Part shown: positions 21,402 through 32,166 of the stretch, in pieces
Position numbering within the stretch: position 1 is the stretch's first letter
How the letters are laid out: each line of letters begins with the position of its first letter
Assembly (NCBI RefSeq): GCF_002964975.1
Contig: NZ_PSZM01000046.1
Span: forward strand, 124,001-188,000
From: Apibacter adventoris
Lineage (GTDB): Bacteria > Bacteroidota > Bacteroidia > Flavobacteriales > Weeksellaceae
Direction of reading: 5' to 3'
DNA length: 64,000 bases
Made by a program: the position numbers and the translations under genes
The notes under the pieces: generated by a model
Told to the model about the DNA's origin: nothing
The model's database searches: none
The model's input: only the letters and a program-made list of their open reading frames with translations

Positions 21402-22778
21402 TTATTCTTCAGGTAAGGCACGTAATTTTTTTATAGGTTTCATTAAAAAGAAAAATATAATATTAACAAATATAAGATTTATCCAGAAAAATAAATTAGG
21501 ATAATTTCTAAAAATTGATTTATCTACAAATTTTGTGTAATATAAAATTAATGGGAGTATAGGAATTAACCAAATACTGAGATTAAGTATAACAGGAGAT
21601 TTTCTCTTAGGTAAATGGTTTAATATCAGATTGGCTAAATAAATTATCATTATAATAAATAGTCCATACCAGAAAGAAATAACTAGCATTATTATAATAA
21701 ATTCATCATCATAGTTAAATAATATATCAAAAAAAGCTACAGCTATTCCAAAAATAAAAATTAAAAGACCTGCTACCACCAGGCTTATTAACCAGGATTT
21801 ACCGCTGGTTACTCTGAATGAGAACAAGGCGATAGATATAAATAAACTTATATATAAGGTTGTGCGTAATAATTGTTCAGTTTTACTTAATGAATTTTCT
21901 AAACAATTATCATTAATTTTTTGATAACCATTAATTAGATTATTATATTGTACATAGTATACATGTTTATTACTATACTCATAAACAGGTTTTTCGCGTT
22001 CGATATGATTTTGGGGATTAATTGGAAAATCAGGGTAATGATAAATTAAATCAAACCATTTATCAGCAGTTAGATTGGTTTCTAAATTATGTTTTTTTTG
22101 TAGATCAAGGTATTGTTGTATAAGTAATTTAATACTATCTTTTTTATCTTCAATTAACCATTGTCTTACAGTATTTAAATTTGTAGAATCAGCAAAGAAA
22201 AATGACCTAAAGGAGAAGGATTCACTTTCAGGATAATTTAACAGGGATGCAACTACAGAATCTTTATGTTCATTATTTGGATTTGCTACATCTGTTTCAT
22301 CATAAGATGTCTCTGATTTAGGGATTAATATTCTGATTTTATCTAATATATTTACGCCTTTTACAAATTGTTTATGGGAGACCTGATTTTGTCGTCTTAA
22401 TACAATTCCCTGATTATAAGAAAAACAATAAAGAGCATTAGCACTTACAAGAATAAAAATGAGAATCCACTCATAGTACAAAGAAATAGATTTTTTCGGA
22501 TAAAAAGATTTAAAGGCATTATTTTTCAAGTAAAATATTAACCAGATTATGAATGTTAAAACAGATGTAAATCCGGCTATAAAGTATAATAAGTCCATAT
22601 TTCGAAAAGAAGAATAATAATAATATGATGTATCCTGGAAATCAATTTTTCCGGATATATATCCGAAAAAGAAAAACAAAAGATTAAGTCCTAAAATAGT
22701 AAGTCCTATAGGTAGAATTTTTATATTCCAAAGTAATGGGTAATTAAGCAGTAAATATTTTTGAGTTTTTTTAAACAT
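21402..22778 (-). CDS. Multi-pass membrane protein, candidate ABC permease
   Basis: 458 residues. Three N-terminal spans (about 22-42, 65-85 and 98-118), an extracytoplasmic domain of roughly 170 residues, then about five spans to the C-terminus. No motif I can name. It lies 24 bp after the gene for an ABC ATPase that has no membrane domain, so the simplest reading is the permease partner of that ATPase. The order of three spans, large external domain and further spans would suit an exporter. I cannot assign it to a known permease family with certainty. Confidence 0.6.
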   Translation of the reverse strand: MFKKTQKYLLLNYPLLWNIKILPIGLTILGLNLLFFFFGYISGKIDFQDTSYYYYSSFRNMDLLYFIAGFTSVLTFIIWLIFYLKNNAFKSFYPKKSISLYYEWILIFILVSANALYCFSYNQGIVLRRQNQVSHKQFVKGVNILDKIRILIPKSETSYDETDVANPNNEHKDSVVASLLNYPESESFSFRSFFFADSTNLNTVRQWLIEDKKDSIKLLIQQYLDLQKKHNLETNLTADKWFDLIYHYPDFPINPQNHIEREKPVYEYSNKHVYYVQYNNLINGYQKINDNCLENSLSKTEQLLRTTLYISLFISIALFSFRVTSGKSWLISLVVAGLLIFIFGIAVAFFDILFNYDDEFIIIMLVISFWYGLFIIMIIYLANLILNHLPKRKSPVILNLSIWLIPILPLILYYTKFVDKSIFRNYPNLFFWINLIFVNIIFFFLMKPIKKLRALPEE

Positions 22779-22802: not shown

Positions 22803-23951
22803 TTAAATAAAGAAACGACGTGTAGAGTTGGAAATATCTCTAAAATATTTTATAGGAATATTTTCTTGAATAATTGTTTCTAAAAAATTTTTTATAGAGG
22901 TTGTTGCAGGAAAATTTGCTATATAAGTTCCACCATTGTAATGGAGTTTTATAAGATTTAATTGCTGGAATGTTTTATATAATTCTTCTTGATTCCAATC
23001 AGATTCAAATTCAATAATAAACTCATGTATTTTATTATCAATAGTTTCAGTCTTTAAATTTCTTTGTTCTCCATGTTTTAAGAATATAACCTGATCGGAA
23101 GTTTTCTCTACCTCATATAGTTGCTGGGAGCTTAGTACTATTCCTAATGGTCTGAATGGTGATTTGGCTATAGCTTTAAAGTCATCTAAAACAATTTGTT
23201 GTGCCATAATGTCTAGATTGGCTAAAGGCTCATCTATGAGTAATAATTTTGGCTTTCTTAGAAGCATACGGGCTAATTCAAAACGCATTTTATAACCGGA
23301 AGAAAGGTTTTTCCAACTTAGTTTTTTATAATCCCTAAGTCCCATACGGCTTAGAATTAAATCTGTTATTAATTCATTTTCTTCACTGGCTACTCCATAG
23401 CAAGAAGCAGTGAATCTTAAATTATCTAACATAGAGCCATACCAATTATTTGTTCTCTGTGGTATATATATAAGTTGAGTTCTCAAGTCATAAATGTCTG
23501 AATAGGTAAAATGATATTTAATTTCTCCTTCAGTAGGATTTAATTCTTTACATAAAGACCGTAATAGGGTAGTTTTCCCATTACCGTTTTCTCCTACTAG
23601 TCCTATAATTTCTCCTTCAGATATTTTTAAATTTATAGGTCCCAAAGCAAATGGAGATTTACTATATGACTTTTTTAAGTTATTGATTTCTAATAGACAT
23701 TTTTGGCTTTTTATTTCTTTTTTGGATAAAAACTGGTGTAGTTCCTGAAGTATAGTAAGATATTTTTCTTTTTTTTCTTCTGTATTGGATTGGTTATAAT
23801 CTACCCAAGCTAAAAGATTGTAAGTTTTTTTATAAAAAGAAAAGTCTTCCGTATCTAAGGTTAAATCTATAATTCTTTTAAGAGTAAAAGTGAAATCCTC
23901 AAATTGTAAAGAATGTAAAATTTTCTCGTATTGTTTTTCAAATAAATTCAT
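22803..23951 (-). CDS. ABC transporter ATP-binding protein with N-terminal extension
   Basis: 382 residues. Residues 1-85 are a helical, Gln/Lys-rich extension with no recognised motif. The ATPase domain follows: Walker A GENGNGKT (120-127), Q-loop region IYIPQRTNN, signature NLSSGYKMR (215-223), Walker B LLLIDEP (236-242) and a switch region near SSQQLYEVE. The signature is LSSGY rather than LSGGQ, as in many ABC-2 exporters. About 80 residues after the ATPase may regulate or dock. It lies 98 bp downstream of the M50 peptidase gene and 24 bp upstream of the candidate permease; together they may export the product of the peptide/terpenoid locus. Confidence 0.88.
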   Translation of the reverse strand: MNLFEKQYEKILHSLQFEDFTFTLKRIIDLTLDTEDFSFYKKTYNLLAWVDYNQSNTEEKKEKYLTILQELHQFLSKKEIKSQKCLLEINNLKKSYSKSPFALGPINLKISEGEIIGLVGENGNGKTTLLRSLCKELNPTEGEIKYHFTYSDIYDLRTQLIYIPQRTNNWYGSMLDNLRFTASCYGVASEENELITDLILSRMGLRDYKKLSWKNLSSGYKMRFELARMLLRKPKLLLIDEPLANLDIMAQQIVLDDFKAIAKSPFRPLGIVLSSQQLYEVEKTSDQVIFLKHGEQRNLKTETIDNKIHEFIIEFESDWNQEELYKTFQQLNLIKLHYNGGTYIANFPATTSIKNFLETIIQENIPIKYFRDISNSTRRFFI

Positions 23952-24049: not shown

Positions 24050-25240
24050 TTAAGATTTTGATAATTTATCTTTTTTAGATATAATAAAACCTTTAATGAA
24101 ATTAAATAACAAATAAAAAAATAACATGGGCACCAAAAGTTGTGCAAATTCACTAAAAGAAAATTCAGCTCCTCGTGTAAATAGATTTTTAAAAAAATTA
24201 TATAGATTTTTAGGAAATAGTAATATGGAATTTGGGTTTTTAATAATTACATAGTAAACAAATAATAAAATAATAGAATAACTAATCAACCCATAGAAAA
24301 ATAAAAGAAAATCTTCTCCTTTCCATTTTTTTTGTTTTTTTGAAAAAATACTTAACACTTTTTTTCCTGCATGGCTCATAAGATTAGGTTTATTAATAAT
24401 ATCTGAAAAAATCCAATATCCATCGCTTCTTAAAAAAGGGTTAAGATTATTAAGAGTTTTAATACATACAATTGAAGCTAATACAGCTAAGAATGAATTT
24501 TTTAAAATAAGCGTAGCAAAAACAACTATTAGAGAGCAAAAAATTAATTCAAAATACATGCCTGCTAAATTTACTACTATTCTTTGTTTTTTGGGTAGTC
24601 TCCATACATCTGTGACATCTGCATAATATACAGGGGTAAATAAGTAAAATCCTCCGCCTATTCCACCATGTTTTGCTCCAAAATAATTTGCAGAAGAAGC
24701 ATGTCCTATCTCATGAAAAGTAGTACTCATAGCCATAAGGATAAAGAAATATATAAGACTGTTTCTCAAATTAAAAGAGGAATAAAGGTCAAAGTGGTAG
24801 TACAGGCAACTACCAATAATACCTATGCAAAGAATAATAACACAAATAGAAATTTTAGATTTAAACAAGAAACCAAAGAATGGCGTAATCTTTTTTAGTA
24901 AATTTTCATTAAATATTATAAAACTAAGATTTAAATATCCGGGTTTTTTATATTTTTTTAGATTTTCATTTTCACCTTCAAGTAATCCATAAGGTTGTAA
25001 CTTTTTGTATAATAAATCGTGTACAAATTCCTCTGTGAGTTCTAAATCATATTGGTTGTTATAGGCAATTATAATATCATGAATACTCTTTTTTCCATCT
25101 ATAAGACAAAGCAAGTCATAAACTTCATTAGATATTTTTACATAATGGTTTTGTATGGTATCATGAAGAAGATATTCACTCTTAGAAAAATTAGTGAATT
25201 CAATATTGCCTGCAATTTTAGGAATTAAATGATCATCCAT
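24050..25240 (-). CDS. Membrane M50-type peptidase with N-terminal PqqD-like domain
   Basis: 396 residues. Residues about 8-90 look like a PqqD-like peptide-recognition domain (pattern HYVKISNEVYDLLCLIDGKK, then a GLLEG end), the kind that binds leader peptides in RiPP pathways. The rest is an integral membrane zinc peptidase: HEIGH at 176-180 within a span, and the second metal motif NLNPFLRSDGYW (265-276, Asp273). At least six hydrophobic spans. It would cleave, or help release, a membrane-associated peptide. It lies 26 bp downstream of the terpene-cyclase fusion gene, so cotranscription is nearly certain. Related arrangements are known for YydH-like and other peptide-maturing M50 proteins. 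Substrate inferred to be the small precursors upstream. Confidence 0.8.
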   Translation of the reverse strand: MDDHLIPKIAGNIEFTNFSKSEYLLHDTIQNHYVKISNEVYDLLCLIDGKKSIHDIIIAYNNQYDLELTEEFVHDLLYKKLQPYGLLEGENENLKKYKKPGYLNLSFIIFNENLLKKITPFFGFLFKSKISICVIILCIGIIGSCLYYHFDLYSSFNLRNSLIYFFILMAMSTTFHEIGHASSANYFGAKHGGIGGGFYLFTPVYYADVTDVWRLPKKQRIVVNLAGMYFELIFCSLIVVFATLILKNSFLAVLASIVCIKTLNNLNPFLRSDGYWIFSDIINKPNLMSHAGKKVLSIFSKKQKKWKGEDFLLFFYGLISYSIILLFVYYVIIKNPNSILLFPKNLYNFFKNLFTRGAEFSFSEFAQLLVPMLFFYLLFNFIKGFIISKKDKLSKS

Positions 25241-25265
25241 TTCACGAAATTTGTTATTTACAAAG

Positions 25266-27134
25266 TTACATAGATAATGCCTTTAAAACAAAAGCAGTAG
25301 TTAAAACTTTACTTTGATATGGTTGTCCGGCTTTAGGACGAATAAAATCGACCGCATTCCAGCTTCCGTTTTTGTTTTGTGAAATAATTAAATATTTTTT
25401 TCCGGCATTTATATATTTTTTATATACATCTTTATCAAATAGCTTTAAACATAGAAGAGCAAAGGAAGTATTTAAAGCATCTGATCCTGAATTATCTCCC
25501 CAACCTCCATCATGGTTTTGATTTTGAACAATAAAATTTATAGCCTGTTGTATTTCTTTTTTATATAAATCTTTTTGAATAGATAAAGCTCTAAGGGCAG
25601 TATAGGTTCCATAATAAACACCATAATACCATCGGGCAGCCCAATAGCCTTCCTTTAATTGTGAACGGACTACGTATTGTAAAGATATGTTTATTTGGCT
25701 CTTAAAAGATTCATCTTTGAGAAGATGTAAAGCGTATATAAAATTGGCTACTACCTCAATATCCGGGCCCGTTCCCCATAAAGTTTGGTTACAATACTCT
25801 TGTTTTTGTTGTATTTTTGTCTGATTTTTTCTAGGTATAATCCAAGTTTCAATTCCTCCATTAGCATCTGTTCTTTCTTCTAAAGCTATATTTATTGGTT
25901 TAGCACAGTATTTAGAAATTAAATGGGTTTTGTCAAACTTTATAAATACTTGTAAGATCTGAGCTAAATCGTCTATATCCGAAGCAATTTCTTTTACATC
26001 CGGATAATAAGACCAACCCCCAACCTTGTCTTTCCGTCTTTTATTTATCCAATATATAGTCTCTTTTTCTATATAATCAGAAATATTTAAAGCATATTTA
26101 TTAGCAATATGAAGCAAACAATCATCTAACATAGCCCTTTGAAAAACATCACTTACCTGTATAGGGGACGAATTGGTAAAACCTTGTTTTTTACTGAGAT
26201 ACATGATGTGTTGCAACTCTTGATAATTTTTCCGATAATCACTTTCAATAAAAGACAATCCTTGGAAAATAGTTTTATTTCGCACATTAGAATAATTAAA
26301 GAAACTATTTTGAGATAGAGCAGATTGTTCCAATTCAATTTTCTTTTCCAGTATAAGTAAATAACCTTCCGTTTCATCCAGATAATTAGATATAGTATTT
26401 GCCATATCTGAAATAGTATTTTCCCATAAACTAGAAATAGAATATTTAACCAAAACAGCTTTTGCTTTTTTAAAATATTGTATAGAGTTTTTTAATATTT
26501 TTTGGCCTATTCCACGAATGAAAAAAAGTTTATTAAGAATCTGTGGAGATAATTTTCTTTCTTCTTCAAAAAGGGAAATATTTAATTGATATACTCCCCA
26601 GTTAAATTGCCCTTTGGTAAAATCTTCATAAAAGTCTTTCACATCATCATATAGTTGAAAGCCTATGGAAAAATAATAATGAGATTGGATAAGGGATTCA
26701 TATAATTGTTTATTATTAGACCCGGAAAGAATATACATGCTGTCAATAGCTATTTTTCCAAAAGCAGCCTTGAGATCTGCTAAATTTTTGTATTTGCTAA
26801 AAGAAACTGTAGATTTTTGTAGACTTAAACCTTTTTCAATACTAATAGCTTGCTGATATTCTTTTTTTCTTTGATTCCAGGTTTTCCAAAAAATAGAATT
26901 AAGTCCAAATATATGTGTGAGTTTTTTTATAGCCTCTTCCTGAAAAGCTAGGGAATAGGTTAGCTTGGTTATATCATGATCATCAATAACTGCATCTAAA
27001 AACAATAAAGATTGGTAGTATAAAAAACCCGCAGAAGACAGTTCTTTGACTAATTCAGAATCTATATTAGGAAAAAAGGCGGTGAATAATTTGGGATAAT
27101 ATTCATAAAATTCAGGAGATTTAGTAGTACTCAT
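25266..27134 (-). CDS. Fusion of class I isoprenoid synthase and class II terpene cyclase domains
   Basis: 622 residues, soluble. N-terminal half (about 30-270): all-alpha class I isoprenoid-synthase pattern with a first Asp-rich motif in LDAVIDDHD (46-54) and a second in GFQLYDDVKDFYEDF (158-172), where FQ..DD..D is typical of prenyl diphosphate synthases. C-terminal half (about 330-622): alpha/alpha-barrel repeats of the squalene-cyclase/prenyltransferase type, with the class II acid motif DIDD (386-389, in ASDIDDLAQ) and QW-like blocks QNQNHDGGWGD (537-547) and SQNKNGSWN. One protein could therefore build or bind a prenyl diphosphate and also cyclise it by protonation. First gene of the run cyclase-peptidase-ABC. 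Linked precursor peptides suggest the prenyl group may go onto a peptide, as ComQ does to ComX tryptophan; a free terpenoid product is the alternative. Confidence 0.8.
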   Translation of the reverse strand: MSTTKSPEFYEYYPKLFTAFFPNIDSELVKELSSAGFLYYQSLLFLDAVIDDHDITKLTYSLAFQEEAIKKLTHIFGLNSIFWKTWNQRKKEYQQAISIEKGLSLQKSTVSFSKYKNLADLKAAFGKIAIDSMYILSGSNNKQLYESLIQSHYYFSIGFQLYDDVKDFYEDFTKGQFNWGVYQLNISLFEEERKLSPQILNKLFFIRGIGQKILKNSIQYFKKAKAVLVKYSISSLWENTISDMANTISNYLDETEGYLLILEKKIELEQSALSQNSFFNYSNVRNKTIFQGLSFIESDYRKNYQELQHIMYLSKKQGFTNSSPIQVSDVFQRAMLDDCLLHIANKYALNISDYIEKETIYWINKRRKDKVGGWSYYPDVKEIASDIDDLAQILQVFIKFDKTHLISKYCAKPINIALEERTDANGGIETWIIPRKNQTKIQQKQEYCNQTLWGTGPDIEVVANFIYALHLLKDESFKSQINISLQYVVRSQLKEGYWAARWYYGVYYGTYTALRALSIQKDLYKKEIQQAINFIVQNQNHDGGWGDNSGSDALNTSFALLCLKLFDKDVYKKYINAGKKYLIISQNKNGSWNAVDFIRPKAGQPYQSKVLTTAFVLKALSM

Positions 27135-27173
27135 ATAATTTTTCTTAAATTAATTTAAATGAACAAATATTTA

Positions 27174-27320
27174 TTAAAAACCATTTATCGGGAATAATTT
27201 TTCTGATAACAGTTGAATAAATCCTGCAACCCAAAAACCCTCAGCTTTTGTAACTCTTAACGGATTGTAAATATTTTGTTTATTATAAAAAGGATAATTA
27301 ATATATATAATAGTTATTTT
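27174..27320 (-). pseudogene. Duplicated 3' fragment of the small secreted protein gene
   Basis: On the minus strand this reads INYPFYNKQNIYNP, then VTKAEGFWVAGFIQLLSEKL and a stop at 27174, almost identical to the last 45 residues of the gene at 27771-28124. Upstream the frame is lost through a 2-bp insertion in an AT repeat. It lies 40 bp before the cyclase start, directly joined to copy A of the intergenic repeat. Confidence 0.75.
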
Positions 27321-27735
27321 TTAAATTATTAAATTTTTATATTCTATAAAATAGATAATAATTAGAATGTTGTAAAAATAATAATAAATATTATTATTTG
27401 TCTGTTTTTTTATAATAAATTACATATATATGACTTTATTTTATTATATAAAATTATAATTGATTATTTTTTTATTTTTTGATAAAAAAAATACTATAGT
27501 TTCTTTTATTTTTATTTGTTTGGGATAAAGTCCACTTAGGGATATGCTGTAAAACTGCCTGTGTACTAAAAATTAATACAATTTATTACTATAGAAAGAC
27601 TTTTAAAAAAGTGAAATATATATATAAAGGTGAAATTTTATGTAGTGATTCAAATAACTTGAATTCCACTAAGGGTTAGAATAATTTAGAGTAATATTCA
27701 TAGAATTTAGGAACAGGATTAGTTAACCTCATATA
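27318..27735 (-). repeat. Locus repeat copy A (promoter region plus cyclase 5' remnant)
   Basis: About 400 bp similar to copies B (29446-29938) and C (31320-31795), including a block around GGGATAAAGT and ATATGCTGTAAA. On the minus strand it starts with a remnant of the cyclase N-terminus (27676-27732: MRLTNPVPKFYEYYSKLF then stop, compare MSTTKSPEFYEYYPKLF) and ends in a promoter-like block. The -7 box is degenerate here (TATTTTTA). The precursor gene expected after it is missing, replaced by the fragment at 27174-27320. Confidence 0.65.
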
Positions 27736-27770
27736 GTTAGCTTGAAAAATGTTATTATAAGTATGAAAGT

Positions 27771-28124
27771 TTATAATAAACTATTTTTTGGGAATAATTT
27801 TTCCGATAACAGTTGAATAAATCCTGCAACCCAAAAACCCTCAGCTTTTGTAACTCCTGACGGATTATATATATTTTGTTTATTATAAAAAGGATAATTA
27901 ATATAATAGTTATATTTTAAATTATAATTTAAATCCTTTTGTTTTAAGTATTCGCTGTATAGAAGATTATTTTGGTAGATGTTGTTTAATTGTAGTATTT
28001 CCTGTGTATTAATAAAATTTTCAGGTAAAAAAGTAATTGATTCTTTTTGGGTCTGGGAAGAGATTTCTTGGCCATAAATAATATGGAAAGAAAAAGCAAT
28101 GAGTAAAATGAATAAGGTTTTCAT
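27771..28124 (-). CDS. Small secreted protein of unknown function
   Basis: 117 residues with a signal peptide (MKTLFILLIAFSFHIIYG) and a mature part rich in Asn, Gln and Tyr. The C-terminus has the segment VTKAEGFWVAGFIQLLSEKL, hydrophobic enough to touch a membrane. It lies 9 bp downstream of the gene at 28134, so they are cotranscribed. Its 3' end is duplicated at 27174-27320, just upstream of the cyclase, showing that this gene and the cyclase were once direct neighbours in another copy. Function unknown; perhaps immunity to or handling of the locus product. Confidence 0.65.
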   Translation of the reverse strand: MKTLFILLIAFSFHIIYGQEISSQTQKESITFLPENFINTQEILQLNNIYQNNLLYSEYLKQKDLNYNLKYNYYINYPFYNKQNIYNPSGVTKAEGFWVAGFIQLLSEKLFPKNSLL

Positions 28125-28133
28125 GGCTTATTA

Positions 28134-29273
28134 TTATTTAATTTCTGTAAATTCCTTTTCTTGCTCTGATAATAAAATGAAAGAATTATTTTTTTCTTTA
28201 TCAGGAATGTTGTCAGTTATTTTTTTAGACAGGTCTATTTTATTTTTTAATCCTTTATGTTTTCCTTTATTAAAGGTAGAAAAATAAATTATTTGGTTTG
28301 AGGTAATAGGAATATTTTTTGTAGTGTTTTCTCTTGTTTTGAATCCTTTAAAATTCATTTCCATGCTTGAAGGGATATATTTTCCTTTATTTTTTATGAA
28401 AGTATATTTCAATTCGGTATCGGTTGTATAAGCTTTATAAAGTATGTTGTCTATTTTTTTCTCGGTATACGTATTTGCCTGTTGGGTTTTAATCTGTAAA
28501 TAAGTAATGGCTTTATCCTTGGAATTATAGATCATCTCTCCCCGTATTTTTAGTTCTTCTTTTTCAATATAGTCAGACTCAAAAGTAATTTCGTATAGAT
28601 CTTCTTCTATCTTACGGCAGGTAGAACTTAGCGGGGAATCTTCGGTAGCTTGTAAGATTCCGAAAATTTCACTGTTAAGAAAAAAACGAAAAATAAAATC
28701 GGAAGGTTTTATTTGTATATCTTGGTTTTTGGTTTTATAATAGAGTATGGAATTTAAACTTATTTGTAAGAAAGAGTCCGGAGTTTTACTTTTAGAGAAA
28801 TCAAACCCATTAAATAAGGTCCATATTTTCATTTGGGATATCAGTAAATTATTTAGTTTACCGTCTGAAAAAGCTTTTTGTTTTATAAGACAATCATATT
28901 CAGAAGGGGAATCATAGTATATTTTAGTGTAATTTTTTAAAATATCTTTAAAAATTTTGTTAGCAGAAAGCCCGTCAATTATTACTTCAGGTATAGTTTT
29001 TTCTATAGGTGTTAAGGTAATCAGATTAGATAAAGCTTCATTAACTATAATTATTTTCTGCTTATATAAAGGATGATAAACTAATAAACTATCTTTAAAA
29101 GTAGTCGGTATGGTTATATCTCCATCATCATTGGTGAAAAAGGTAATTTCTTTACCTCTCAATTCAACATTGGCAATAGGAGCCTGGCTTTCGAAATCAA
29201 TAATTTTATATTTATTTTGTGAATAAAGTAATAATTGAGTAAGAAATAATATGAAAACAAATTCTAATTTCAT
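28134..29273 (-). CDS. Secreted carboxypeptidase-regulatory-like domain protein, copy 1
   Basis: 379 residues. Signal peptide (MKLEFVFILFLTQLLLYS), then a carboxypeptidase-D regulatory-like beta domain (about 20-95: KIIDFESQAPIANVELRGKE, TNDDGDITIP, then LTPIEKTIPEVIIDG). The remaining 280 residues are a beta-rich domain without a named motif. The same plan is seen in the protein at 29943. Such CarboxypepD_reg-like modules are common at the N-terminus of TonB-linked surface proteins, but no barrel is present here. It is in one transcript with the 117-residue gene. Role in the peptide locus is unknown. Confidence 0.75.
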   Translation of the reverse strand: MKLEFVFILFLTQLLLYSQNKYKIIDFESQAPIANVELRGKEITFFTNDDGDITIPTTFKDSLLVYHPLYKQKIIIVNEALSNLITLTPIEKTIPEVIIDGLSANKIFKDILKNYTKIYYDSPSEYDCLIKQKAFSDGKLNNLLISQMKIWTLFNGFDFSKSKTPDSFLQISLNSILYYKTKNQDIQIKPSDFIFRFFLNSEIFGILQATEDSPLSSTCRKIEEDLYEITFESDYIEKEELKIRGEMIYNSKDKAITYLQIKTQQANTYTEKKIDNILYKAYTTDTELKYTFIKNKGKYIPSSMEMNFKGFKTRENTTKNIPITSNQIIYFSTFNKGKHKGLKNKIDLSKKITDNIPDKEKNNSFILLSEQEKEFTEIK

Positions 29274-29307
29274 TTTTATATAAAATTAATTTAGGTTATG
29301 TTACAAG

Positions 29308-29331
29308 AGGCTACCTACTTTAAGGTAGCCT
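29308..29331 (-). terminator. Hairpin after the 55-residue precursor gene
   Basis: Perfect 9-bp stem AGGCTACCT / AGGTAGCCT with a 6-nt loop, 28 bp past the stop of the small gene at 29359. It is one of the most GC-rich hairpins in the locus and may end the precursor transcript while allowing some read-through to 28134. Confidence 0.65.
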
Positions 29332-29358
29332 GAATTTTTATTGGGTAACTATCTATTT

Positions 29359-29526
29359 TTAAAAATTAATTGTCCATTTTCCTCCATAATGGGTTTCCCC
29401 ATCTGAAGTGCTAATAATAGCTGGAGATAATCTTCCCCAACCCATTTCGTATCTTTTTTCCAATTCTTCAACTTTGAATTTTTCTAATACTAATTTTTCA
29501 TTTGTTTTACCTTTGGCTTGAGCCAT
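29359..29526 (-). CDS. Candidate precursor peptide, 55 residues
   Basis: A short gene from ATG at 29526 to TAA at 29359. The leader reads MAQAKGKTNEKLVLEKF then KVEELEKRYEMGW; the rest, GRLSPAIISTSDGETHY followed by GGKWTINF, would be the core. The VEELEKRYEMGW block is identical to that of the 66-residue peptide at 31966, while the cores are unrelated, the usual mark of RiPP precursors: fixed leader, variable core. There are no Cys, so lanthionine or disulphide chemistry is excluded; Ser, Thr and Trp remain as targets. A consensus -7 box (29605-29612) lies upstream and a terminator downstream. Confidence 0.7.
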   Translation of the reverse strand: MAQAKGKTNEKLVLEKFKVEELEKRYEMGWGRLSPAIISTSDGETHYGGKWTINF

Positions 29527-29938
29527 TTGTCTTTTTTTTCATAAGAAGTTTTTTCAATCATTCAATTTTTGAATTCTATAAATTAGCTAATAGTTAGAAT
29601 AATACAAAAATAATAATATATATTAATATTCTATAATTTATTTTGTAATAAATTATCTATATGCTCTTATTTTATTATATATATTTATAATGAAGTGTTT
29701 TTTTATTTTTATTTGTTTAGGATAAAGTTCTCTTGTGAATATGCTGTAAATAATCTTAGGAATAGTAATTATTTTAAATTTATTAATACGGGAAGATTTT
29801 TAAAATGTGATTTAGATAAAAAGATTAAATATTTTATATAGTTAATTCAAATAACTTGAAATCTACTAAGGTTTGGGATAATTTAGGGTAAGATTCATAG
29901 AATTCAAAAGATTTAGCAGTATTTATAGTTTTTACATA
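29446..29938 (-). repeat. Locus repeat copy B (cyclase remnant, promoter, precursor leader)
   Basis: Similar to copies A and C over about 380-480 bp and extending into the precursor leader. At its upstream end (about 29868-29925) the minus strand reads NTAKSFEFYESYPKL, a remnant of the cyclase start. This copy keeps the consensus -7 box TATTTTTG and an intact precursor gene. Confidence 0.65.
29605..29612 (-). promoter_or_regulatory. -7 promoter box of the 55-residue precursor gene
   Basis: TATTTTTG on the minus strand, about 80 bp upstream of the ATG at 29526. The matching position in copies A and C reads TATTTTTA, so only the copy with an intact peptide keeps the consensus G. Confidence 0.5.
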
Positions 29939-29942
29939 ATAT

Positions 29943-31106
29943 TTATTTGCTTAATATGGCTTTGTATTCTTTGTTATCTTGTAGTGAGTTTATAAATTTT
30001 TTCATCTCTTCAGTAAGCAATAACTGATTTTGTTTTTTCCAGAACTCCTCATTGTAAGCTCCCTCAATTTTAAAAATTTCTTTGGTTACTGAGGTGTTGG
30101 AAGTAATGTCTGAGGTAGTAGGATTGGAAAGTAGTAATTGATAATCTAAATCATATACAGTTCTTTTATTATTTCTGTCGAATAATTCCACATTATATTT
30201 AAAGACACAATTAGATTGAGTATATTTTTTTAAAGAGGAATTATAAGAATAGGAAATAGCTATATTGTAGTTCATGACCCTCCACTTAAATCCGTATTTA
30301 GAAGTAAAAGGTAATCCGGAATTTCGATCGTTTTTAGAATGGTAATAAACTGAAAGTATAGCATTGTCTGTGTTGTTTATAATATAGAATCCTTCACGGG
30401 GGTTATTTGTGTTTTCTTTAGCAGTAAAATAAATTTTAGTGTAAAGAGAATCAATATTTTCACCTTTATAAAAGTTGTAATTTTTATATTCAATTCCGAT
30501 TAGTGTCGCTCGATAGAGTATTTCTTTTAAAGTAAATAATCTAAAATACTCTATTTTATTACTTGAAAATACTTTTCCAGCTTTGCGTATATTGGATACC
30601 GAAGCTTTATATTTGTTTTTTTTAATTGTAGAGGTTAAGAATGATGTTTTTCTGTGGATTTGTCCTGTAAGGTCTACTATTCTAAGTAGTTCATTATTTT
30701 GTTTTATTGTTCCCCTGAGAAAAAAAGATTCTGAATAAGGGAATAAAACATAATTATTTTTCATTTCTTTAAAAGCTTCTTCCACTATAAGTTTTGGGCT
30801 TTTTACTACTATTTCGTCTATATCAGTCATTTCAAGTGGAGTTAGTGAAATAGTAGTATGGTCTTTTATATCAGAAATTTCTTTATCCTGATAGTATAAA
30901 TGATTAAAATTTATAACTCCTCCAGTATAATACAGGTAATATTTTCCTTCAGAATTAGTAAAATTTTTATTAGAATCTAAGGTAGTTATTTCTACCCCTT
31001 CTATAGGTAACCCTGTATTTTTATCGATTACTTTCCCTGTAATAATAGTCTGTGTATAATTAAAAATACATAAAAGGGAAATAAGTATAGAAAATATGAT
31101 TTTCAT
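29943..31106 (-). CDS. Secreted carboxypeptidase-regulatory-like domain protein, copy 2
   Basis: 387 residues from the ATG at 31106 (MKIIFSILISLLCIF), which gives a clean signal peptide; an in-frame ATG at 31133 would add nine residues before it. A carboxypeptidase-D regulatory-like domain follows (ITGKVIDKNTGLPIEGVEIT, FTNSEGKYYLYY, ISLTPLEMTDIDEIVVKSPK), then a beta-rich domain of about 280 residues. It is a paralogue of the protein at 28134 in plan, but clearly diverged. It sits between precursor copies, downstream of the broken copy and upstream of the 55-residue gene. Function unknown; surface or periplasmic. Confidence 0.75.
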   Translation of the reverse strand: MKIIFSILISLLCIFNYTQTIITGKVIDKNTGLPIEGVEITTLDSNKNFTNSEGKYYLYYTGGVINFNHLYYQDKEISDIKDHTTISLTPLEMTDIDEIVVKSPKLIVEEAFKEMKNNYVLFPYSESFFLRGTIKQNNELLRIVDLTGQIHRKTSFLTSTIKKNKYKASVSNIRKAGKVFSSNKIEYFRLFTLKEILYRATLIGIEYKNYNFYKGENIDSLYTKIYFTAKENTNNPREGFYIINNTDNAILSVYYHSKNDRNSGLPFTSKYGFKWRVMNYNIAISYSYNSSLKKYTQSNCVFKYNVELFDRNNKRTVYDLDYQLLLSNPTTSDITSNTSVTKEIFKIEGAYNEEFWKKQNQLLLTEEMKKFINSLQDNKEYKAILSK

Positions 31107-31250
31107 TAATTTTAATTTATATAAACTGTCCAAAATGTTTGTTTATCCTTATTTTATAGTAATTATAATTTTTGATAAATTCTAATTTTGGACAGTTTTT
31201 ATATTTAACAAATAAGTATTTAAACTATAATTGTAATAAAATTTACAAAA

Positions 31251-31410
31251 TTATTTATGCAATATTATTATTGGCTCAGCATTCTGAAGCTCCATATGTA
31301 CTTCGGGTTCAATCCAATCCATTTCATATCTTTTTTCCAATTCTTCAACTTTGAATTTTTCTAATACTAATTTTTCATTTGTTTTTACTTGTACTTGTAG
31401 CTTTTGCGAT
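31251..31410 (-). pseudogene. Broken precursor peptide gene
   Basis: On the minus strand TNEKLVLEKF, VEELEKRYEMDW and a core IEPEVHMELQNAEPIIILHK end at a TAA at 31251. The leader matches the 55-residue gene, but the position of its ATG is ATC here (31408-31410) and one extra A in an A-run shifts the frame before TNEKL. No other start serves the leader. It is therefore a recently decayed third precursor with yet another core. Confidence 0.7.
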
Positions 31411-31795
31411 TTGTTTTTTATAAGATATTTTTTTTAATCATTAAATTTTTGAATTCTATAAATTAGCTAATAGTTAGAACACTGTAAAAATAATAATATA
31501 TATTAATATATTGCATTTTTTTTGTAATAAATTATATATATGCTCTTATTTTATTATATCTAATTATAATGAAGTGTTTTTTTTATTTTTTAATAAAAAA
31601 AATATTATTTTTTCTTTTATTTTTATTTGTTTAGGATAAAGTTCTCTTGCGAATATGCTGTAAATTACCTGAGGAATAGTAATTAATTCAAATTTATTAC
31701 TACAGAAAGACTTTTAAAAAAGTGATTTAGATAAAAAGAATAAAAATTTTATATAGTTATTCAAATAACTTAGAATCTATGAAGGTAATATTTGT
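31320..31795 (-). repeat. Locus repeat copy C (promoter region plus broken precursor leader)
   Basis: Aligns with copies A and B, including the ATATGCTGTAAA block near 31660 and the GAATTCTATAAATTAGCTAA block near 31450. The -7 box is TATTTTTA. No cyclase remnant is clear at its upstream end. Together with 31134-31319 and 31796-31905 it fills an otherwise gene-free stretch. Confidence 0.6.
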
Positions 31796-31905
31796 AAAGC
31801 TCAGAGATTTTGAATTTTGATTCATTCAAGAGTTATTGAAAAAAACACTTAAAGTTATATTATGATAACTAAATTATGTAGAATAAGAGCATGTATAAGA
31901 AGATA

Positions 31906-31947
31906 AAATAAAGAAAAAAGAAATCTTGGTCTCTTTTTTCTTTATTT
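31906..31947 (-). terminator. Strong hairpin after the 66-residue precursor gene
   Basis: Perfect 16-bp stem (31906-31921 and 31932-31947, loop 10 nt), 19 bp past the stop at 31966. The arms are A-rich and T-rich, so it could work in both directions. It separates the intact precursor from the rest of the locus, favouring a short abundant transcript. Confidence 0.75.
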
Positions 31948-31965
31948 GTTAATTAAGATAAATAA

Positions 31966-32166
31966 TTATTTATTCACGCCCCAGCTAGCGCTACCTTTTC
32001 CATTACCCCAACTAACGTCTCCTTTATCTCCATCAACGTGTACGCTTCCGCTACCCCAATCTACATTAACAGTGTACCAGCCCATTTCGTAACGTTTTTC
32101 TAATTCTTCAACTTGGAATTTTTTTACTAATTGAGCTTCTTTTTCTTTTTTGTTTAAATTTTTCAT
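31966..32166 (-). CDS. Candidate precursor peptide, 66 residues
   Basis: 66 residues. Leader MKNLNKKEKEAQLVKKF then QVEELEKRYEMGW (18-30), followed by a 36-residue core rich in Gly, Ser, Val, Asp and Trp with three WG units: DWGSGSVHVD, SWGNGKGS and SWGVNK. The core lacks Cys, Arg, Leu and Pro and looks repetitive. The leader block is shared with 29359-29526 and the broken copy. Charged leader plus small, repetitive core fits a ribosomal natural-product precursor; prenylation of Trp would be the parallel to ComX. It has its own promoter box and terminator. It could instead be a small structural peptide, but the shared leader argues against that. Confidence 0.75.
   Translation of the reverse strand: MKNLNKKEKEAQLVKKFQVEELEKRYEMGWYTVNVDWGSGSVHVDGDKGDVSWGNGKGSASWGVNK

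Follow-up and report, generated by a model that had tools for sequence, protein, structure and literature searches.

A probable ChrPC-type terpenoid peptide cluster with a prenyltransferase-cyclase fusion enzyme in Apibacter adventoris

Two enzymes in which a peptide prenyltransferase is fused to a terpene cyclase are treated in the pertinent passages of a 2026 review, which credits both to Hubrich et al. 2024, Chem 10:3224 (PMC13290415). In ChrPC, which judging from its name comes from Chryseobacterium, the P domain modifies an internal Trp with C10-C20 donors, and the prenyl group is cyclised by the C domain. NctPC, a fusion of the ABBA-fold type, has a cyclase domain resembling MstE; it geranylgeranylates Trp and then cyclises the chain. 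MstE itself is termed monodomain in these passages. According to the same source, all characterised trans-IDS-like peptide prenyltransferases target Trp and have a common Gln upstream of the second Asp-rich motif, which is linked to Trp recognition (PMC13290415). The island described here occupies positions 24050-32166 of a 64,000-nucleotide stretch of Apibacter adventoris DNA (the window, G+C 0.277) from a genome of 2.75 Mb. It is very probably a ChrPC-type cluster for a terpenoid ribosomally synthesised and post-translationally modified peptide (RiPP), in which Trp would be prenylated and the attached chain would then be cyclised. As a further cluster of the ChrPC kind, it belongs to a kind of product that was first published in 2024 and is not new. 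The sequence-only reading of this DNA had taken a cyclase fusion tied to peptides for a novelty, a claim that the descriptions of ChrPC and NctPC anticipate (PMC13290415).

Like ChrPC as the review describes it, the locus combines trans-IDS-like prenyltransferase and terpene cyclase domains in one enzyme and has an internal Trp as the putative acceptor. Set beside ChrPC, the window has two intact precursors with long cores and a decayed one, an M50 peptidase and two proteins, CPD1 and CPD2, in the operon. The fusion of a prenyltransferase with an MstE-like cyclase is common to the window enzyme and NctPC; the first half of NctPC, however, has the ABBA fold, whereas that of the window fusion has the isoprenoid-synthase fold. 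In the review, isoprenoid-synthase-fold peptide prenyltransferases acting on Trp are represented by ComQ/ComX and PalQ (PMC13290415; the PalQ paper is PMC10853753), but these are without a fused cyclase. The parallel with ComQ, proposed earlier, holds for the first half of the window enzyme, which is a fusion of 622 residues and not a stand-alone prenyltransferase without a cyclase domain. ComX is a pheromone of Gram-positive bacteria and is not known to involve an M50 peptidase of this sort. The second half shares its class II cyclase fold with MstE and the drimenyl diphosphate synthases, and we know of none among these with an isoprenoid-synthase-fold peptide prenyltransferase half.

Gene content and the fusion enzyme

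The genes of the island lie on the minus strand and are listed here in the order of transcription, together with a hairpin.

31966-32166, minus strand: precursor pre3, 66 residues; leader ending VEELEKRYEM, 38-residue core with 4 Trp, the first at core position +2
31251-31409 (approximate), minus strand: pre2, probably a decayed precursor copy; leader VEELEKRYEMDW, open frame without an ATG, GTG or TTG start ahead of the leader
29943-31133, minus strand: CPD2, CarboxypepD_reg-like, secreted-looking, 396 residues; PF13715 at E 8.9e-6, below the cut-off
29359-29526, minus strand: precursor pre1, 55 residues; leader ending VEELEKRYEM, 27-residue core with 2 Trp, the first at core position +2
29308-29331: hairpin with a 9-bp stem, AGGCTACC...GGTAGCCT, between pre1 and CPD1
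28134-29273, minus strand: CPD1, secreted-looking, 379 residues; no family match
27771-28124, minus strand: secreted-looking protein of 117 residues; no family
25266-27134, minus strand: fusion maturase, 622 residues; trans-IDS-like prenyltransferase domain and class II cyclase domain
24050-25240, minus strand: M50 membrane metallopeptidase, HEIGH ... PFLRSDGYW; possible N-terminal PqqD-like leader-binding region

The N-terminal half of the fusion matches Pfam PF00348 (E 1.8e-4, under the gathering score) and the C-terminal half is of the squalene-hopene-cyclase (SHC) type (PF13243, 2.3e-21). Foldseek searches with an AlphaFold model of the fusion (predicted local distance difference test score, pLDDT, 81.6; predicted template modelling score, pTM, 0.59) retrieve the SHC-type cyclase 8pak (6.9e-10), the drimenyl diphosphate synthase 7xru (8.5e-10), MstE (6sbb, 1.8e-8) and polyprenyl synthases such as 4jxn (4.4e-5). 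Together these matches confirm that the protein is an isoprenoid-synthase/terpene-cyclase fusion, as had been recognised earlier. The first half has both Asp-rich motifs of the isoprenoid-synthase fold, D47...D51 and DDVKD at 163, the latter preceded by Q160, and the catalytic acid of MstE-like class II cyclases is present in the second half as DIDD at 386-389. In an alignment of 14 fusions, D47, D51, D163, D164, D167, D171 and both Asp residues of the cyclase DxD are kept in every one. The DxD is followed by D in 10 fusions and by S in the remaining 4 (L042, L071, L106 and L107), and Gln160 is kept in 13, with Cys in its place in L042.

The precursors pre1 and pre3 provide an internal Trp in the same cluster. 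Their leader block VEELEKRYEM is followed by GW, and D replaces G in pre2 (VEELEKRYEMDW). Near the start codon, mismatches and indels set the 5' part of pre2 apart from that of pre1, while the DNA ahead of this region and the leader are nearly identical. Because the start region is altered and no ATG, GTG or TTG lies in frame before the leader, pre2 is probably a decayed copy. The small genes with a common leader noted in the sequence-only reading are, accordingly, two intact genes and one D-variant without the usual start. A leader profile of 16 rows finds three matches in the host genome, all of them in the locus (E 1.4e-21, 5.3e-15 and 2.1e-9); since pre1 and pre3 are among the rows of the profile, the fair point is that the host genome has no other match. 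The M50 profile likewise has a single match in the host genome.

The M50 peptidase matches NCBIfam daptide_HExxH (NF041824) at 3.5e-34, with 118.6 bits against a curated cut-off of 300 bits, NF058609 at 1.3e-19, below its curated cut-off, and Pfam M50 at 0.0019, also below the cut-off. It is homologous to the M50 peptidases of daptides and epipeptides (YydH/LiaK) and scores below both curated cut-offs. Daptide clusters carry aminotransferase and methyltransferase genes for the modified C terminus, and none of these was found among the nine window proteins scanned. The likely role of the peptidase is removal of the leader. Its assignment to M50 stands as first made; the PqqD-like domain ascribed to it corresponds to a weak match to the WgkC model (E 0.015), and Pfam PqqD gave no match up to E 1 in the nine members scanned.

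Linkage in other genomes and neighbouring genes

Fusion loci were collected from 17 genomes (the window, L014-L021, L042, L071 and L102-L107). Fifteen of the 17 have the M50 gene, which in L106 takes the form of two overlapping frames; it is in no frame of L020 and L107, both of whose stretches stop at contig ends. Leader peptides are found in 14 loci; the three others, L018 (20 kb), L020 (6.3 kb) and L071 (4.4 kb), have none in any frame. In L014, six leader peptides stand in a row before the fusion, each with exactly one Trp in its core. The cyclase half of the L107 fusion is interrupted by a stop, and the fusion of L021 (genome G068) is split. Five loci, L015-L018 and L021, which come from five genomes belonging to two genera, share 99.8-100% identity across the 4.2-4.7 kb that were compared, and L016, L017 and L018, again from two genera, are identical over 4173 bases. 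The five are near-identical and are therefore taken as one case; identity of this degree across two genera is apparently the result of recent transfer. When near-identical copies are counted once, there are 13 distinct fusions, 11 of them with leader peptides (one, L107, interrupted); the 13 span six families of the phylum, going by the labels of the genome collection.

Trp occurs in all 17 distinct cores from fusion loci and lies within the first six core residues in 15; it makes up 0.9% of the residues in 14 window proteins. Its presence in every core fits Trp as the acceptor in these loci. The core count, in fusion and stand-alone loci taken together, leaves aside pre2, as decayed, L016, L017 and L021, whose core is the same as that of L015, and a frame of L108 (21-263) that does not fit the leader pattern; the start codons of some precursors were picked by hand inside longer frames. 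The linkage to leader peptides (14/17) and to the M50 gene (15/17) and the Trp of the cores (17/17) bear out the proposal of a RiPP-type peptide-terpenoid locus with the fusion as the tailoring enzyme, for which co-occurrence of leader and fusion across genomes had been named as the check.

Searches were made in samples of family, order and phylum genomes, which overlap. The single-protein search with the fusion gave matches in 11 of 197 family genomes; counted among these are the window genome, one split copy and two weak matches that are stand-alone enzymes. The fusion profile matched 11 of 395 order genomes, weak matches and stand-alone enzymes included. With E no higher than 1e-10 it matched 11 of 395 phylum genomes, a number that takes in cyclase-only and stand-alone genes. 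Weak order-level matches of the profile lie in G200, G284 and G004 (L045-L047), and seven of ten class-level matches (E 1.7e-8 to 7.7e-5) look like ordinary polyprenyl synthases by their frame length of 325-341 residues. A contig search with a single window protein gave one Planctomycetaceae record (L013, 33% over 77 residues). Cyclase-like genes in L109 (G930) and L041 (G240) have no leader peptide match and were left out of the fusion counts. The protein in L041 (8269-11095) is without a prenyltransferase half and adjoins two PhyH-type dioxygenases; G240 also carries the fusion locus L042 elsewhere in its genome.

Further enzymes accompany some of the fusions. On the M50 side of the fusion in L042 (4107-10409) lie a radical SAM/SPASM protein (TIGR04463, 3.7e-51, below the cut-off) and a cytochrome P450 (1.7e-18); the fusion itself has DxDS for DxDD and Cys for the Trp-recognising Gln. 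In L102-L105, fusion loci of other families, radical SAM proteins stand directly ahead of the precursor. No radical SAM or P450 protein was found among the nine window proteins scanned. A YcaO-family protein (L020, 268-2118; PF02624, 3.3e-48) shares a short contig with a fusion gene, and a truncated-looking ABC transporter ATPase of 198 residues follows the M50 gene in L016-L018 and L021. A relaxase gene lies beside L017 and an integrase-core gene beside L106.

CPD1, CPD2 and the 117-residue protein sit between the precursors and the fusion and went unmentioned in the sequence-only reading; their secreted look was judged by eye from the N termini. CPD1 and CPD2 are distant homologues (E 1e-6). 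A homologue of CPD1 adjoins the fusion in L015-L019 and L021. In L018 it precedes the fusion; in the other five loci it sits between the fusion and the precursor. The 117-residue protein has no significant similarity to the 97-residue protein at the equivalent place in L017. Our guess is that the CPD proteins are receptors, immunity or display partners. The hairpin at 29308-29331 is not above chance as a terminator (one terminator-like site found against 1.8 expected in shuffles); it is possibly an attenuator or processing stem, which would perhaps set the ratio of precursor to operon transcript.

The ABC ATPase (22803-23951) and permease (21402-22778) next to the island had been read as the exporter of the cluster, an assignment that synteny in related loci contradicts. 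ABC ATPase, permease and then a sensor kinase are direct neighbours with a constant order in each of the six same-genus loci read (L055-L060), none of which has the fusion. In G016 (L060) 12 bases separate the stop of the DUF58 gene from the first ABC ATG, against 8.4 kb between both genes in the window; G016 shows the empty site of the cluster, which was seen in that one genome only. The corresponding gap is 1.6 kb in L056, and no DUF58 gene was found on the stretches of L055, L057, L058 and L059. For two more same-genus genomes (G071 and G097), the search yielded no ABC match passing its cut-off. Because the ABC genes are neighbours without the fusion, and because of the empty site, this exporter is not part of the cluster. 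A mobile island marked by composition or flanking repeats was also considered and found no support: the G+C content of the island is 0.256, against 0.264 and 0.274 on its sides, and the junction zones have no common repeat longer than 11 bases.

Proposed mechanism and its alternatives

Gene content, domain identity, catalytic motifs, conserved linkage and the conserved Trp were observed here and may be read as follows. The two intact precursors would be made with their common leader, which is probably recognised by the N-terminal region of the M50 protein, by the fusion, or by both. The first half of the fusion would move a C15 or C20 prenyl group from its diphosphate onto a Trp of the core, for which the residue at core position +2 is the likeliest candidate. 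The second half, an MstE-like class II (DxDD) cyclase, would then protonate the attached chain and so form rings, after which the M50 peptidase would cut the leader off. Prenylation of Trp followed by cyclisation is taken over in this scheme from the published relatives.

Several points weigh against it. Membership in the ChrPC kind is suggested by architecture, motifs and the published description of ChrPC and not by comparison with the ChrPC sequence. At a pTM of 0.59, the relative placement of the two domains in the model is uncertain. In the cores of L019 and L042, Trp is confined to the region near the C terminus; the L042 enzyme is also without the Gln. L018 has the fusion, the M50 gene and the CPD gene, yet no recognisable precursor within its 20 kb. 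The fusion is rare, with none of the eight same-genus genomes listed carrying it, and no exporter was identified for the cluster.

The fusion could instead be a bifunctional terpene synthase, which makes farnesyl or geranylgeranyl diphosphate and cyclises it to a free terpene, the peptides being handled by the M50 peptidase only. Both halves are of folds that do such steps in terpene pathways, but the company that the enzyme keeps makes this highly improbable: the fusion occurs with leader peptides in 14 and with the M50 gene in 15 of its 17 loci, and relatives of its first half alone sit with both in all ten of the stand-alone loci described below. The published Trp-recognition Gln, kept in 13 of 14 fusions, argues in the same direction. 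The host, moreover, already has two other polyprenyl synthases over the Pfam cut-off, so that the fusion is not its housekeeping enzyme. It is also improbable, although less strongly so, that the peptide is prenylated and the cyclase half is inactive, or that this half cyclises the prenyl diphosphate before transfer. Foldseek does place a drimenyl diphosphate synthase beside MstE, and the order of the steps is not readable from sequence. Class II drimenyl diphosphate synthases keep the diphosphate. An inactive cyclase, on the other hand, sits poorly with the retention of both DxD acids in 14 of 14 fusions, and for both NctPC and ChrPC the review passages give prenylation first and cyclisation second (PMC13290415).

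That the window copy is a decaying or silent cluster gained horizontally would be compatible with Trp prenylation and cyclisation as the function of the family, and is a somewhat stronger contender, though still an unlikely one. One of the three precursors is broken, none of the listed same-genus genomes has the fusion, the G068 fusion is split, the stretch of 4173 bases is identical in L016, L017 and L018 across two genera, and mobility genes (relaxase by L017, integrase core by L106) lie beside relatives. Against this reading, two precursors, the fusion and the M50 gene are intact with all catalytic residues present, and the composition of the island is like that of its sides. A cluster in which Trp would be prenylated before the chain is cyclised is the reading we prefer.

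Stand-alone enzymes without a cyclase

The fusion profile also meets stand-alone enzymes of about 270-316 residues without a cyclase, and these are the most interesting lead of the analysis. Ten loci were compared (L022, L023, L043, L044, L090-L094 and L108), among which the enzyme of L094 is broken and the leader match of L108 is weak (E 0.0066). In all ten, the enzyme is accompanied by a homologue of the M50 peptidase and by one or more peptides whose leader is related. With a profile of four stand-alone enzymes, matches, some of them to fusions, were obtained in 11 of the 197 family genomes and in 7 of the 395 order genomes. There is no meaningful match to these enzymes in Pfam (L022 and L043) or NCBIfam (L022, L043 and L044). 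The structural matches of a model (pLDDT 77.8, pTM 0.77) are geranylgeranyl diphosphate synthases at E 6.6e-3, with the Trp prenyltransferase Ord1 at rank 49; none reaches E 0.001. In five of the loci (L022, L023, L091, L092 and L094), three tandem secreted-looking proteins of about 240-340 residues adjoin the stand-alone triads and are perhaps partners of the mature peptide.

The cores of these peptides differ from those of the fusion loci. None of 11 has an early Trp, and four have any Trp at all. Tyr is found among the first four core residues in 11 of 11 stand-alone cores and in 2 of 17 fusion-locus cores, and the join of leader and core is mostly F-[T/I]-F-Y. Cys occurs in 11 of 11 and 11 of 17 cores, respectively, which is no clean separation. 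The Fisher value of the core comparison, 2.8e-4, overstates the significance, as do the naive P values, because the tally is by sequence and the relatives are not independent; a contrast between two related groups, moreover, does not demonstrate any chemistry. The stand-alone enzymes may thus prenylate Tyr or Cys and not Trp, the choice of acceptor following the presence or absence of the cyclase domain, a tentative proposal to which we give slightly less than an even chance. A change of acceptor is made less likely by two observations: the four stand-alone enzymes that were aligned all have the Gln associated with Trp recognition, and the four cores with Trp hold it further on. The branch is possibly new; titles and the beginnings of abstracts give no pointer to it among the literature matches listed, and Hubrich et al. 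2024 may already describe it.

Ring-forming terpene peptides were reported only in 2024, and the passages of the review that treat them name two such enzymes (PMC13290415). The 13 distinct fusions and the six-precursor array of L014 form a panel for testing which residue is modified, with which chain and into which rings. This type of lipidation is relevant to work on membrane-active peptides. The stand-alone branch, if the proposal is true, would test whether the isoprenoid-synthase enzyme fold is truly limited to Trp.

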